A stretch of DNA of 37,592 bases from an uncultured Clostridia bacterium. Lineage in GTDB: Bacteria > Bacillota > Clostridia > Christensenellales > CALMFG01. Below, piece after piece: positions 26,156 to 31,546 of this stretch. The stretch covers positions 1-37,592 of the forward strand of contig CALMFG010000119.1 of the NCBI GenBank assembly GCA_937863465.1, read 5' to 3'. The notes beneath the pieces are model-generated. The model was not told the origin of the DNA. It was given only the letters and a program-made list of their open reading frames with translations, and did not search any database. Position numbers and translations under genes: made by a program. The stretch's first letter is position 1; each line of letters begins with the position of its first letter.

Positions 26156-27439
26156 ATGATGAACGATTATAATGATAGATTGGCCAAGACGCTGGGGGTG
26201 TCTCGCGCGGTTGTCGATTTGGTTTTGTCAGCCGAAACGGAAATGGCTGACGTGTTCAGCCGCTTCGAAGCACTCTCCAGACAGAATCAGGCCGCGGTGC
26301 TTTCGGCATTTAAAAAAGAAAAAATCGCCGCCGCGCATTTCGGCGGAACAACCGGCTATGGATACTCAGATATGGGCAGAGAAAAGCTCTCTGCTCTTTT
26401 TGCGCGTGTTTTTCAGGGCGAAAAGGCGCTGGTCAGCCCGCATTTGCTCTCCGGCACGCATACCATCTACCTGATGTTAAAATCGCTCTTAAAAAGCGGA
26501 GACACCATGATTGCCGCTGCCGGAACGCCCTACGATACGCTGGCCACGGCGATGGGTTTGACCGACAAAGTAAAACGAAACACATTGATTGAAAAAGGCG
26601 TTGACGTGCAGATTATCGCGCTGACCCAGCAAAACGAGATCGATATGGATGCGCTTAAAACGGCCATCGCGGCAAAAAAACCGAGAATGGTCTATATTCA
26701 GCGCTCGCGCGGATATGCCTGGCGTCCGTCAATTTCGATGGATACCATCGAAACCATCGCGGCGATGACCAAACGGCTTTCGCCCGAAACCATTGTGGCC
26801 GTGGACAACTGCTACGGAGAGTTCTGCGAGACGCGTGAACCTTTGGAAGCAGGGGCGGATATCATCGCTGGCTCGCTGATTAAGAACCCCGGCGGGGGAA
26901 TTGCGCCGAACGGGGGATATATCGTCGGAAAAATCGAATTGATTGAGACTGTGGAGGACCACTTCACGGCGCCGGGCATCGGGACCGAGGTGGGTTCGTA
27001 CGCGGCTTCCTACCTGCCATTCTTTCAGGGACTGTTTTTGGCGCCCAAGGCGGTGTCCGAAAGCCTGAAAGGCGCGGCACTGACCGCGAAAGTAATGGAG
27101 AACTTAGGCTTTGACGCGCTGCCCAAAGCGGATGACAACCGCGCCGATATCACCCAGTCGATTAAAATGGATACTGAGGAACAGCTTATCGCCTTTATTC
27201 AGGGCGTCCAGAAGGGTTCGCCCGTGGATTCCCACGCGCTGCCCGTGCCCTGGGATATGCCGGGGTATGAGCATCCGGTCATCATGGCGGCGGGAACGTT
27301 TATGCAGGGAGCGTCTTTGGAGCTTTCGGCCGACGCGCCCATCAAAAAACCCTGCATCGCTTATATGCAGGGCGGTTTGACTTATGAAGCGCACCAGTTC
27401 GGTCTGATGCACGCGATCGATAATATGGGGATCCTATAG
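26156..27439 (+). CDS. ynbB: PLP-dependent methionine gamma-lyase family protein (YnbB, aluminium resistance family)
   Basis: 427 residues of the Met_gamma_lyase family of fold-type I pyridoxal phosphate enzymes. The PLP lysine is expected at Lys243 in [24 protein letters not shown] near the N-terminus and [10 protein letters not shown] before the lysine fit the family. The substrate of YnbB proteins is not settled. The miaA-hfq-ynbB order is typical of Firmicutes. Two ATGs (26156, 26159) can serve as the start and neither has a clear Shine-Dalgarno site, so it may be coupled to hfq. The 3' end overlaps lexA by 6 bases tail to tail. Confidence 0.93.
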
Positions 27440-28069
27440 GATTCTAAAAACGCCGATGACCTTGCCTAGGATATGCACCTCGCGCACCAGAATGGGCTCA
27501 TACGCGTCGTTTTCGGGCTGCAGGCGAATATGGTCGTCGTCGATATAGAAGGTCTTCACCGTCGCCTCGTCCTCGATCAGCGCCACCACGATGTCGCCGT
27601 TCTGCGCCCAGTTTTGCTTTCTTACGATGATTTTATCGCCGTTTAAAATCCCTGCGCCAATCATGCTTTCGCCTTTGACGTTTAAGACAAAGCTGTCCTC
27701 ATGCGTAGCGATGGAGCGGGGGAGCGTTAAGTATTCTTCAATGTTTTCATGTGCCAGAATGGGCACACCGGCCGTCACGTCGCCGACAACGGGAATTGAT
27801 ACCATATCGGCGTCCAGTTCACGCCGATAGTCAATTGCAGGCCTGTTGGTCTCAGCCTCATCAATAATAGAAATCGCGCGGGATTTGGACTCGTCACGGT
27901 GGATAAGGCCGCGTTTTTCAAGGCGCTGGAGATAACCGTGCACAGTGGACGTCGAGGAGAGACCGGCGGCCTCGCCGATTTCCCGGACAGACGGGGGATA
28001 GTTATTTTCATCGATATAATCGACAATAAAGCGATAGATATTCTTCTGTTTTTCACTCATTTTTTCCAT
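27434..28069 (-). CDS. lexA: SOS transcriptional repressor LexA
   Basis: 211 residues. An N-terminal winged helix ([30 protein letters not shown]) binds DNA, and a C-terminal S24 peptidase-like domain cleaves itself when RecA is activated. The cleavage site is Ala100-Gly101 (DVTAGVP), with catalytic Ser135 (GESMIGAG, Glu in place of the commoner Asp) and Lys172 (ATVKTF). The ATG at 28069 has GGTG upstream; a second ATG three codons on is an alternative start. Its promoter carries a LexA box over the -35 region, so it should repress itself. Confidence 0.98.
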
Positions 28070-28157: not shown

Positions 28158-29198
28158 TTAGTCGCGGAGTTTCACGGCGTTCTTGACGCTTTTTCGGCGG
28201 TCATCCACGATTTTGGCGTAGTGTTTGCGCGTGGTATTGACGTCTTTGTGACCCAAAACATCAGCTACCAGGTAGATATCGCCGGTTTCCTGATACAGCG
28301 CGGTACCGAACGTGGAACGCAGTTTATGCGGCGAAATATTCTTTAAAGGCGCGGCTAAACGCGCATATTTCTTGACGAGATTTTCCACCGAACGCACACC
28401 CAGCCGCTGTTTTTGCAGATTTAAGAACAAGGGTTCGTCCAAAGCGTAGGTTTTCTGGTTTTTACGCTCGTCCAGATAGTCGGCCAAAGCTTTTTCCGCT
28501 TCTTCGCTGAAATACAGGATAGCTTCACTGCCGCCTTTGCGTGTGGCCTTAAAACTGCCGTTGACGAAATCCAGATCGCCGATATTGAGGCCGACCAGTT
28601 CGGAAACACGGATACCGGTGGCCAAAAGAAAGGTCACCAGCGCGAGATCGCGTTTTTTGGTCAGGTCGTGATAGACCCGTTGTTTGGCGGTGAGCCCGGT
28701 GCCTTGCTCGATTAAATCCAACAAATCGGCCACTTCGTTGGGCTCCAAACGGACGATGGGCTTTTCGTGGATTTTGGGCATATCGATTAACGCGCAAACA
28801 TTTTTTTCCAACAGGCCTTTTTTGTAATAATACTTAAAAAAGCTCCTCAAACTCGCGATTTTTCGCGCCTTTCCGCGGGACGCGTTCTCAATTTCTTTAT
28901 CATCTTTAAAATATAGACCTAAGTACTCGACGTAGATTTCAAAGTCGGTCAAATCCAGCCGTGAAAGATCGTCAATAGTGATATCCGCGGGTGTTTTTCC
29001 GCCGACTTTAGAACACTCGGTCGATAGATAGTTGAAGAACAGGCGCAAGTCGTACGCGTAGTTCAGCCGCGTCAGCGCGGACGTCGTGGTTTCCACCGAA
29101 CGGAAAAAATCCCGCGCAAAGGGCGGCAGTTCGGTGAAGAGTTCGCGTAAGCGCAAGGTGCGTTCGTGGTCGATGGTTTTATAATAGTTTTCGCTCAT
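28158..29198 (-). CDS. Tyrosine recombinase (XerC/XerD-like)
   Basis: 346 residues: an N-terminal SAM-like core-binding domain (about 25-125) and a C-terminal catalytic domain. The full catalytic set is present: Arg197 (TGIRVSEL), Lys221 (TRKGG), His291 and Arg294 (SPHKLRSTFG), His317 (LGHKDV) and nucleophile Tyr327 (KHYAKI). It is longer than XerC/XerD (about 300) through its N-terminus. It lies upstream of lexA on the same strand, which suggests a chromosomal housekeeping-type recombinase rather than a phage integrase; no phage genes are near. A perfect 12-6-12 inverted repeat lies directly upstream of its promoter and is a candidate target site. Confidence 0.92.
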   Translation of the reverse strand: MSENYYKTIDHERTLRLRELFTELPPFARDFFRSVETTTSALTRLNYAYDLRLFFNYLSTECSKVGGKTPADITIDDLSRLDLTDFEIYVEYLGLYFKDDKEIENASRGKARKIASLRSFFKYYYKKGLLEKNVCALIDMPKIHEKPIVRLEPNEVADLLDLIEQGTGLTAKQRVYHDLTKKRDLALVTFLLATGIRVSELVGLNIGDLDFVNGSFKATRKGGSEAILYFSEEAEKALADYLDERKNQKTYALDEPLFLNLQKQRLGVRSVENLVKKYARLAAPLKNISPHKLRSTFGTALYQETGDIYLVADVLGHKDVNTTRKHYAKIVDDRRKSVKNAVKLRD

Positions 29199-29232: not shown

Positions 29233-29261
29233 ATTATATAATATCCGCTGATGATGCACAA
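29233..29261 (-). promoter_or_regulatory. Candidate promoter of the tyrosine recombinase
   Basis: On the minus strand TTGTGC (29261-29256) and TATAAT (29238-29233) are 17 bases apart, about 35 bases upstream of the ATG. The -35 box ends 2 bases from the 30-bp inverted repeat. Confidence 0.6.
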
Positions 29262-29263
29262 TA

Positions 29264-29293
29264 CTATTCGTAAAACTTGTCTTTTACGAATAG
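29264..29293. repeat. Perfect 12-6-12 inverted repeat, candidate tyrosine-recombinase crossover site
   Basis: Arms CTATTCGTAAAA (29264-29275) and TTTTACGAATAG (29282-29293) are exact reverse complements. They flank an asymmetric 6-base centre, CTTGTC. Tyrosine recombinase core sites such as dif have two inverted arms of about 11-12 bp around a 6-8 base centre, so the geometry fits. There is no T run, so it is not a terminator. It could instead be an operator between the two divergent promoters. Confidence 0.6.
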
Positions 29294-29350: not shown

Positions 29351-29389
29351 GACAACTAATAAATATTGTATTAATTGGAGAATGTAACT

Positions 29390-30040
29390 ATGGATGCTGG
29401 GTCAATCGAAGGTCCAAATAGTAACGATAGAAAGATTTATACCACCATTTATAAAACTATTGCATTAATCAGTATTATTTTTAGTACAGCCATGATACCG
29501 TTGTACATCATCAGTAACATCCGAGACTACTCGTTCTATCGTTTTTTCTTACCTTACAATGCAACAAACATGGGAATGTTCAGCGCTATCAGTTTATTTT
29601 CATCTAAATCTTTAGTGCCTGCTTCGCTTTGGACACGATCCTATCTGGTCTACCCCATTGTTTTATTCTATATAAGGCAGCAATCTACGGAATCAGTCAA
29701 AAAAAATATAAATTTATCATTTATTGTTTGGGCAGTCGGTGCGTTGATTGTTTCGCTGGCCATATCTTCGTATTCACAAATATTAAAATACATATATGCG
29801 ATAGATTTTATTGTTTTGATCATCATACTTTCATTAATAATCAGGAAACTGAGCAACCCTGTATTTAAAGGTTTGGTTGCCCTAAATATTATTACACTGA
29901 TTTTTAGGATAATGACAGCGATTACACCTGCAAGAAATTTCATTACTTCAACATTTATCATTCTTACTGTGATTGCATCATTCGTTATCAATATTATATT
30001 TTCATCTAGATTTAGAAAATACGTGACATCTCTGGAATGA
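29390..30040 (+). CDS. Unrecognised multi-pass membrane protein
   Basis: I do not recognise a family. The 216-residue protein has about six hydrophobic helices (starting near 22, 60, 85, 108, 131 and 150-205 with the last two close together), a short polar N-terminus and a basic C-terminal end (SSRFRKYVTSLE). There are no obvious catalytic motifs. The start is the ATG at 29390 because GGAG lies 8 bases upstream; an in-frame TTG at 29375 would overlap that site. The gene is visibly richer in A+T than its neighbours, and stands divergent to the recombinase, which suggests acquired or fast-evolving DNA. Confidence 0.7.
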   Translation: MDAGSIEGPNSNDRKIYTTIYKTIALISIIFSTAMIPLYIISNIRDYSFYRFFLPYNATNMGMFSAISLFSSKSLVPASLWTRSYLVYPIVLFYIRQQSTESVKKNINLSFIVWAVGALIVSLAISSYSQILKYIYAIDFIVLIIILSLIIRKLSNPVFKGLVALNIITLIFRIMTAITPARNFITSTFIILTVIASFVINIIFSSRFRKYVTSLE

Positions 30041-30113
30041 TAAAATATTATGATGTATTCCTAGTAGAGATGTTGCATGGTTACTACATTTCATAAATAT
30101 TTCAGGGCTGTGA

Positions 30114-30218
30114 ATAACTACTTTTTTGCTACTAGTAATGCCAAATGTTTGGATTATTGATTTTACTATAACCCTGACATTAATTCTAAATATTGTTTTT
30201 AGCAAAAAGTTTTCTTAA
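30114..30218 (+). pseudogene. Possible 3' remnant of a paralogue of the preceding membrane protein
   Basis: An open stretch in the gap between the two membrane-protein genes ends in NIVFSKKFS-stop, preceded by a run of hydrophobic residues. The preceding gene ends with a hydrophobic helix followed by NIIFSSRFR. Five of nine residues match, with conservative changes at others, at the equivalent place near a C-terminus. The stretch lacks a credible start and is broken upstream by stops. It may be what is left of a tandem duplicate; the match is short and could be chance. Nothing else was seen in this 210-base gap. Confidence 0.3.
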
Positions 30219-30250
30219 AATATAAAATCCGAGAGGCAATCATTCAGAAT

Positions 30251-31048
30251 ATGAACTCAAATTCATATCAAATAAAACTAAACAAGACGCACTATCTGTT
30301 TACTGCTATTACGCTGATATGCGTGCTGGCTTTGCTAAACGCAATCGACTACGCGGTTTTCAACGCACGTTTTCTTCCTTTGCCCAAGATAACAAAGCTG
30401 GCTCTCATCCGTTACGCCCCCATGTTCGGGGTTGCTTTAAGTTTTTTTCTCTGGGACAAATCCATCGAGCGCCCAAACAAGCTGTATCTGGCACTGCTGA
30501 TAATATTTATTTTAAAAATTACGGTTGTTAGATATTTACTGCCGCTGGTATTCACAAAATTTATTTACACGGAAGCGTATATTGATTATTATGATTCGTT
30601 GGAAGTGCTTTCGTTCAAAGAAATTGCCCTGCAAATTGCACTGAATTTTTTGATGATCGTATGTGAAATACTCTTTATCGTTTTTACCGTTATGATACTA
30701 AAAAGAAATAAATCATTAGCCAAGACAGTTAGGTTCATTTTTATCAGTTTTATTATTTATATCAGCTGTTTTATTATCAGCGATATCTATTCGATGGACG
30801 TCTACCAAATCGTATTTTTTAATTCGCCCGATACCATTGCCGAGGTTTATCGAGAACAGAACTGGCAATATGTCTCCTATCTGCTGACCATCCCGCTTAA
30901 ACTTGCGCGAATCATAGCGATTCTGCCGACTTTTGTTTTAATATCAAAATACCGCGGTGAGGAATCGATTTGGACATGGTTTAAAAGGGGCCCTTACCGA
31001 AAATTTAAAAAAATTATATCGCCGTACAACCCGAATGGTGTTGAATAA
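30251..31048 (+). CDS. Unrecognised multi-pass membrane protein
   Basis: No family recognised. It has 265 residues with about six hydrophobic segments (near 15-37, 48-66, 77-97, 123-148, 158-177 and 213-233) and a basic cytoplasmic C-terminus (FKRGPYRKFKKI). The charged loop DSPDTIAEVYREQNW-like region near 190-207 probably faces one side. The ATG has only a distant GAGAGG (about 14 bases), so translation may be weak. Like its neighbour at 29390 it is AT-rich and of unknown role; the two share no obvious sequence similarity. Confidence 0.7.
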   Translation: MNSNSYQIKLNKTHYLFTAITLICVLALLNAIDYAVFNARFLPLPKITKLALIRYAPMFGVALSFFLWDKSIERPNKLYLALLIIFILKITVVRYLLPLVFTKFIYTEAYIDYYDSLEVLSFKEIALQIALNFLMIVCEILFIVFTVMILKRNKSLAKTVRFIFISFIIYISCFIISDIYSMDVYQIVFFNSPDTIAEVYREQNWQYVSYLLTIPLKLARIIAILPTFVLISKYRGEESIWTWFKRGPYRKFKKIISPYNPNGVE

Positions 31049-31134
31049 TTACGGTATAAAAGCCTCATTTCTGATATTTTTGTACGATGTAATCTATCAG
31101 TATCGACATAGACGAATATCCAAATTAATGCTAC

Positions 31135-31152
31135 AATACTTATATAAGTATT
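31135..31152. promoter_or_regulatory. 18-bp perfect palindrome upstream of the DUF805 gene
   Basis: AATACTTATATAAGTATT equals its own reverse complement. It overlaps a -10-like TACAAT (31132-31137) and lies about 25 bases before the ATG, a common position for a repressor operator. No regulator gene is adjacent, so the binding protein is unknown. Confidence 0.45.
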
Positions 31153-31177
31153 AATAATATTTTATTGGAGGTTTCCT

Positions 31178-31546
31178 ATGAAACAATGGTATTGGGATGT
31201 GATTACCGGTAAGTATGCAGAATTTTCCGGCAGAGCGGGCGTTAAGGAATTCTGGATGTTTGTTCTTTTCAATTTCATCATCAGTGTCGCATTCAGCATC
31301 ATTATCGCCATTTTTGGTGATTCTTTCATGGCAAGGTTCTTCACCGTCCTTGAAGTTTTGTACGGTTTGGCTGTGCTTATTCCAGGCTTAGCCATTGCGG
31401 TTAGAAGACTGCACGACATCGGCAAAAAATGGACTTGGCTGTTGATTGCTTTTATTCCGTTCGTTGGTGCAATCTGGCTCATCGTTCTGTATTGCCAGGC
31501 TTCCGAACCTCAGGAAAACGAATATGGTCCGGTTCCGGCTGTATAG
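31178..31546 (+). CDS. DUF805 family membrane protein
   Basis: 122 residues matching the DUF805 pattern: an N-terminal Trp/Tyr-rich start, FSGRAGVKEFWMFVLFN, helices near 28-45 and 52-70, then the hallmark IAVRRLHDIGKKWTWLLIAFIPFVGAIWLIVLYC and a polar tail ending NEYGPVP. The function of DUF805 proteins is unknown; they are small inner-membrane proteins often found as single genes. The ATG follows GGAGG at a good distance. It is monocistronic, with an 18-bp palindrome upstream and a terminator downstream. Confidence 0.88.
   Translation: MKQWYWDVITGKYAEFSGRAGVKEFWMFVLFNFIISVAFSIIIAIFGDSFMARFFTVLEVLYGLAVLIPGLAIAVRRLHDIGKKWTWLLIAFIPFVGAIWLIVLYCQASEPQENEYGPVPAV

Follow-up and report, generated by a model that had tools for sequence, protein, structure and literature searches.

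A predicted single-recombinase Xer system in Christensenellales and the perfect palindrome proposed as its dif site

The stretch of DNA analyzed here (the window, 37,592 nucleotides) is the entire contig CALMFG010000119.1 of a 2.17-Mb draft genome of an uncultured Clostridia bacterium belonging to the order Christensenellales (GCA_937863465.1, 209 contigs). It harbors the gene of a tyrosine recombinase and, on the 5′ side of this gene, a 30-bp palindrome at positions 29264-29293. Comparison with related genomes makes it very probable that this palindrome serves as the chromosomal dif site in a single-recombinase Xer system of Christensenellales and related Clostridia, with the adjacent gene encoding the recombinase. 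The locus contains the following features.

29264..29293, no strand: predicted dif site, an exact palindrome composed of arm CTATTCGTAAAA, center CTTGTC, and arm TTTTACGAATAG.
29276..29281, no strand: asymmetric 6-bp central region, the expected region of strand exchange, which gives the site its direction; such centers are never self-complementary.
29233..29261 (approximate), minus strand: putative recombinase promoter TTGTGC-N17-TATAAT, read from the sequence, directly downstream of the predicted dif site.
28158..29198, minus strand: single Xer-type tyrosine recombinase of 346 amino acids with catalytic residues R197, K221, H291, R294, H317, and Y327, assigned by Pfam, NCBIfam, and a structure model.
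27434..28069, minus strand: lexA (TIGR00498, 232 bits), a frequent neighbor of the recombinase gene and the next gene after it.

The two 12-bp arms are exact reverse complements. No other perfect 12-N6-12 inverted repeat occurs in the window, and 40 second-order Markov resamplings of the window produced none; the palindrome is real, beyond chance. Its nearer end is 66 bp from the recombinase start codon, and in the direction of the gene it is followed by TA-TTGTGC-N17-TATAAT. An earlier annotation of the locus made from the letters alone (the sequence-only reading) had described a perfect 12-6-12 inverted repeat and, 2 bases away, the −35 box of a complete tyrosine recombinase gene, with an AT-rich membrane-protein gene diverging on the other side. 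This description proved accurate, the recombinase frame starting with ATG and the divergent open reading frame (ORF) running from 29375 or 29390 to 30040 on the plus strand. In the sequence as read, in which no scan aimed at intrinsic terminators was made, there is no T-run after the palindrome.

The recombinase matches the Pfam family PF00589 (Phage_integrase) with 106.7 bits. Its best NCBIfam model is XerS (NF003462) with 181.9 bits, which misses the XerS equivalog cut-off of 267. The six catalytic residues (R, K, H, R, H, Y) are all present and are invariant in 52 orthologues. The structure model reached a predicted local distance difference test (pLDDT) score of 91.6 and was matched by Foldseek to XerA, XerH, XerD, and the Tn1549 integrase, with the XerH structure 5jjv among the top matches at 24% identity.

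As proposed in the sequence-only reading, the 30-mer was searched in the source genome and in relatives, here 61 Christensenellales genomes, with a free center and up to three mismatches. The source assembly contains a single copy, and exactly one site per genome was found in 34 of the 61 genomes. The reversed pattern, used as a control, was found in none of the 61. Recombinase matches were obtained in 55 of these genomes at E ≤ 0.001, mostly above 300 bits. The repeat was also looked for upstream of the orthologous recombinases: in 38 of 51 loci the gene has a full site (20 or more of the 24 arm positions) no more than 2 kb away on its 5′ side, mostly 60-300 bp from it. A class-wide draw of 293 genomes was searched with a degenerate pattern, taking recombinase matches of at least 270 bits as orthologues. 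The site was present in 40 of the 53 genomes with an orthologue versus 21 of the 240 without (Fisher p about 1e-22), the off-target rate of the pattern was similar to that of the reversed pattern, and 30 site matches lay within 2 kb of the recombinase gene, on its 5′ side. The exact pattern furthermore occurs in at least 117 stretches of GTDB genome contigs, whose listed titles are Clostridia or other Bacillota. The recombinase is also encoded on 57 of these 117 stretches, the site invariably lying 5′ of it, and lexA is present on 35 of the 57.

The arms of the site evolve together. Across 47 sites from the order, 533 of 564 positions agree between the two arms, versus a mean of 478 and a maximum of 499 when right arms were shuffled among genomes (10,000 shuffles). 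The arms are identical in 30 of the 47 sites, including variants that are altered on both sides (CTTTGCGCAAAA, GTATTCGCAAAA, and CACTTCGTAAAA). Such co-variation, by which the arms stay identical, would follow from recognition of both arms by a single protein. The center varies and is self-complementary in none of the 47 order sites, the 117 GTDB stretches, and 17 viral contigs discussed below.

In three single-contig genomes the site marks where the GC skew goes from plus to minus, and the skew turns back roughly diametrically across. Relative to the site, the cumulative skew peaks at −1310, +1339, and +281 bp in these genomes and at +156 bp in the window. In some genomes (named by our own handles) site and gene are apart. 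There the maximum was found −409 bp from the site in G299 (13.9 kb from the gene), +541 bp from the site in G029, and +310 bp from the site in G040, with no turn on the contig stretch of the gene in the last case. On contig C9 of G049 the maximum fell at 104,498, where no site had been listed; a scan revealed the perfect palindrome TTATTCGCAAAACAACAGTTTTGCGAATAA at 104,233, which was thus located from the skew prediction alone and lies 17 kb from the recombinase gene. A match on contig C12 of G049, obtained in the first pattern search, was rejected as the dif of this genome, since there is no skew turn there and the true site is likely the one on C9. Overall, the skew flip follows the site rather than the gene in four of the five genomes in which they are separated.

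Two genomes carry mobile elements at the site. In G039, a 5.4-kb insert (L124:2638-8032; G039:C2:136137-141531) lies between attL- and attR-like copies that have 22 bp in common, the ends being CTATTCGCAAAACACAAGTTTTCCTGTTGG on the recombinase side and CTATTCGCAAAACACAAGTTTTGCGAATAG. Its coding content comprises a Rep_trans replication protein (55 bits, cut-off 29.6) and a Zot-type assembly ATPase (21.0, cut-off 20.3), along with small membrane proteins and a helix-turn-helix regulator; no integrase gene was found in it. By its sequence the insert is a filamentous-phage-like element with the position and layout of dif-integrating phages. The same layout is seen in G049, where a 14.4-kb insert of lower GC content (L335/L336; G049:C9:89790-104262) is located between a degenerate copy, TTATTCGCAAAACAACAG-C-TTTTGCGAGTA, and the intact site. 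It carries a rolling-circle Rep gene (59.5 bits), Bro-N, and large unknown membrane proteins, and again no integrase was found, which makes two integrase-less rolling-circle elements at the site. At the ends of both elements an arm and the 6-bp center are duplicated. The lexA-linked enzyme is the only XerD-like tyrosine recombinase in G039 and in G049 at E < 1e-10, which points to the host enzyme as the integrating agent; both elements were likely inserted by it.

The dif-like dedicated crossover site considered in the sequence-only reading is thus strongly supported by the terminus location, the single copy per genome, the co-evolving arms, and the elements integrated there. Features general to Xer/dif systems are found: two arms around an asymmetric center of 6-8 bp (here 12-6-12), one dif per chromosome (in the own genome and 34 relatives, at up to three mismatches), a dif at the replication terminus as marked by the GC-skew flip, and a catalytically complete, lineage-wide Xer-type recombinase (52 orthologues; 55 of 61 genomes). 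In the proposed mechanism, two molecules of the adjacent recombinase would bind the two identical 12-bp arms, and two sites on a dimeric chromosome would synapse. Strands would then be cut, at presumed cleavage positions, and exchanged across the asymmetric 6-bp center. In this way a chromosome dimer would be converted to two monomers at the terminus before division, presumably under control of the FtsK translocase. As a second role, the recombinase may regulate its own promoter.

Several observations concern the use of one enzyme rather than two. In many genomes of the order the lexA-linked protein is the sole match to the XerD model. The source genome encodes a further XerD-like protein beside deoB (C27, L002:1450-2340, minus strand), which scores 280 bits versus a cut-off of 329.6 and has lost three of the six catalytic residues. 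The positions changed or missing align to R148, K172, and H244 of Escherichia coli XerD. This protein is likely a relic or a repurposed XerD. The remark in the sequence-only reading that the arms do not resemble the usual Firmicutes dif also fits a single-recombinase system.

Some results weigh against the assignment as the dif site of a one-enzyme system or limit the support for it. The XerD cut-off was reached in none of the 61 order genomes, but it is strict: no more than 4 of 14 control genomes reach it, so that absence of XerD judged by the cut-off alone is a weak, supporting argument. A canonical Bacillus-type Firmicutes dif gave no matches in the order and none in the class, so this search had no positive control and favors neither side. 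Several genomes possess the recombinase without a recognizable site (G002, G012, G028, and G045), and in G056 the skew maximum lies 19 kb from the site and 48 kb from the gene.

A different explanation is that the palindrome is mainly an operator, through which the recombinase or another repressor controls the recombinase promoter and the divergent gene, with no crossover taking place. The palindrome abuts the −35 box, and an arm is often retained where the full site is remote from the gene. With a half-site defined by at least 11 of 12 arm positions, 8 of 20 remote-site genomes have a single arm no more than 260 bp from the recombinase start, versus 0.27 expected from shuffles. With promoters read by eye, the kept arm falls in the spacer that separates the −35 box from the −10 box in five genomes (G056, G033, G035, G017, and G049) and just upstream of the −35 box in G015 and G013; in the window it is the dif arm itself that adjoins this box. 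However, the skew flip still carries a full site where the gene is kilobases away, elements have inserted in the site, and the paired-arm geometry is maintained where the recombinase promoter plays no part. An operator as the main function is therefore very unlikely and operator function is best read as an additional role. Control of its own expression by binding, as suggested in the sequence-only reading, accordingly may be a second role, indirectly supported by the half-sites kept in recombinase promoters, and not the main one.

Autoregulation of the recombinase via the dif arm is plausible as such a second role and would be the most natural interpretation of the half-sites. We rate as about evenly balanced the stronger proposal that these Clostridia possess a distinct single-Xer class whose recombinase additionally acts as a repressor of its own promoter by binding a dif arm, and in which selection keeps an arm in the −35/−10 spacer when the dif is remote. 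If true, the level of the dimer resolvase would be feedback-controlled by the same DNA code that it recombines. The G056 half-site was also considered as an integration scar. This was rejected because the intervening 29 kb to the dif holds core genes (mutS, mutL, miaA, and pheS/pheT-like, identified by eye) and the center differs; in G056 the gene appears to have moved, rather than the site.

It is extremely unlikely that the palindrome is the attachment site of a mobile element with the recombinase as its integrase and the AT-rich genes at 29390-31546 as cargo. These ORFs (33-38% GC) directly adjoin the site, and the orthologous site is indeed occupied by mobile elements in G039 and G049, but the recombinase is matched in 55 of 61 order genomes, mostly above 300 bits, commonly beside lexA and at the terminus, and no second or degenerate copy exists beyond the far side of the AT-rich genes. 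The chance that the palindrome is an invertible switch, in which a promoter or segment would be turned around by recombination between the palindrome and a second, inverted copy, is close to negligible: a tyrosine recombinase does lie beside an inverted repeat between divergent promoters, but the second copy envisaged in the sequence-only reading is missing from the own genome at up to three mismatches (a 209-contig draft, for which a lost second copy is conceivable), each of 34 relatives has exactly one copy, and in complete single-contig genomes, where the site is single and no segment is flanked by two inverted copies, a switch is ruled out.

The predicted dif site and its recombinase resemble other Xer systems in part. 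As in XerS/difSL of streptococci and lactococci, a single recombinase of ca. 350 residues is encoded directly beside its own dif (PMC5357621; Le Bourgeois 2007 as cited there), and XerS is the best NCBIfam match of the enzyme encoded in the window. DifSL is a 31-bp site with imperfect, unequal arms and an 11-bp center (PMC5357621), whereas the site described here is 30 bp long, its 12-bp arms are identical, and its center has 6 bp; the XerS cut-off is missed. XerH/difH of Helicobacter and Campylobacter shares the single recombinase near its own site and the asymmetric 6-bp center (PMC5241119, PMC5357621). The difH arms, however, are unequal in sequence and affinity while co-variation keeps the arms identical here, and XerH belongs to another phylum with low sequence identity. 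XerL/dif of Legionellales is likewise an overlooked single-recombinase system with a palindromic site, revealed by a dif-mimicking mobile element that integrates near the terminus (PMC9765430). It belongs to another lineage and has genetic proof, as opposed to the prediction made here, and half-sites at the recombinase promoter are not reported for XerL in the available part of PMC9765430.

XerCD/dif, the system of most bacteria, also has inverted arms, a short center, and one site per chromosome near the GC-skew flip, but two recombinases act on two different arms (PMC3025954), compared with one enzyme and equal arms here. A pair of active recombinases was not found, judging by the XerD model: none of the order genomes reached the XerD cut-off, and catalytic residues are missing from the XerD-like paralogue encoded by the source genome. 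CTXphi-type filamentous phages that exploit Xer resemble the G039 element in placing integrase-less phage genes between an intact and a degenerate dif (PMC4246890, PMC5666396); here the host is a Clostridia member with a predicted single-Xer system, and the G039 element is known from sequence only.

Since tested defining features of XerS/difSL, difH, and XerCD are absent, we classify the system as a separate version of single-recombinase Xer/dif, predicted with high confidence. The kind is already known from XerS/difSL, XerH/difH, and XerL/dif; no description of such a system in Christensenellales or of this site was found in the open literature, subscription literature being outside the search. 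The prediction would fill in the dif site and resolvase that have been missing for Christensenella and many uncultured gut Clostridia and add another single-recombinase Xer lineage. A natural, perfectly palindromic site used by one enzyme would help to ask how a symmetric Xer complex picks the first strand. The site would also mark the terminus in draft genomes and indicate the place at which these bacteria receive filamentous and other integrase-less elements.

Between the predicted dif and a DUF805 gene with rnhA, the window carries two AT-rich membrane-protein ORFs (29375-31048) without a Pfam or NCBIfam match. These were possibly imported beside the dif; a degenerate second site near them was not found in the window.

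Dif-like palindromes were also observed inside tailed-phage contigs from IMG/VR (L309-L325), in 8 of 17 viral contigs on the same stretch as the large terminase gene. Neither the recombinase nor the phage genes of the G039 element were found on the viral contigs with the site. Two Christensenella prophages have the palindrome between the terminase and portal genes (G030:C1:1776190, L075:11190; G053:C1:2031903, L099:11903). The centers of the phage palindromes are mostly unlike the chromosomal ones, and for this reason these sites may have a role in resolving phage multimers and not in integration. In other families of the class, several dif-like palindromes occur on different contigs of G075 (4 sites) and G278 (3 sites), possibly reflecting phages, plasmids, or elements. 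A second group of Xer-like recombinases of about 350 residues was observed in other Clostridia families (e.g., G061, G142, G284, and G329); these proteins score 140-190 bits with 31-39% identity and fall between the recombinase orthologues and XerC/D.
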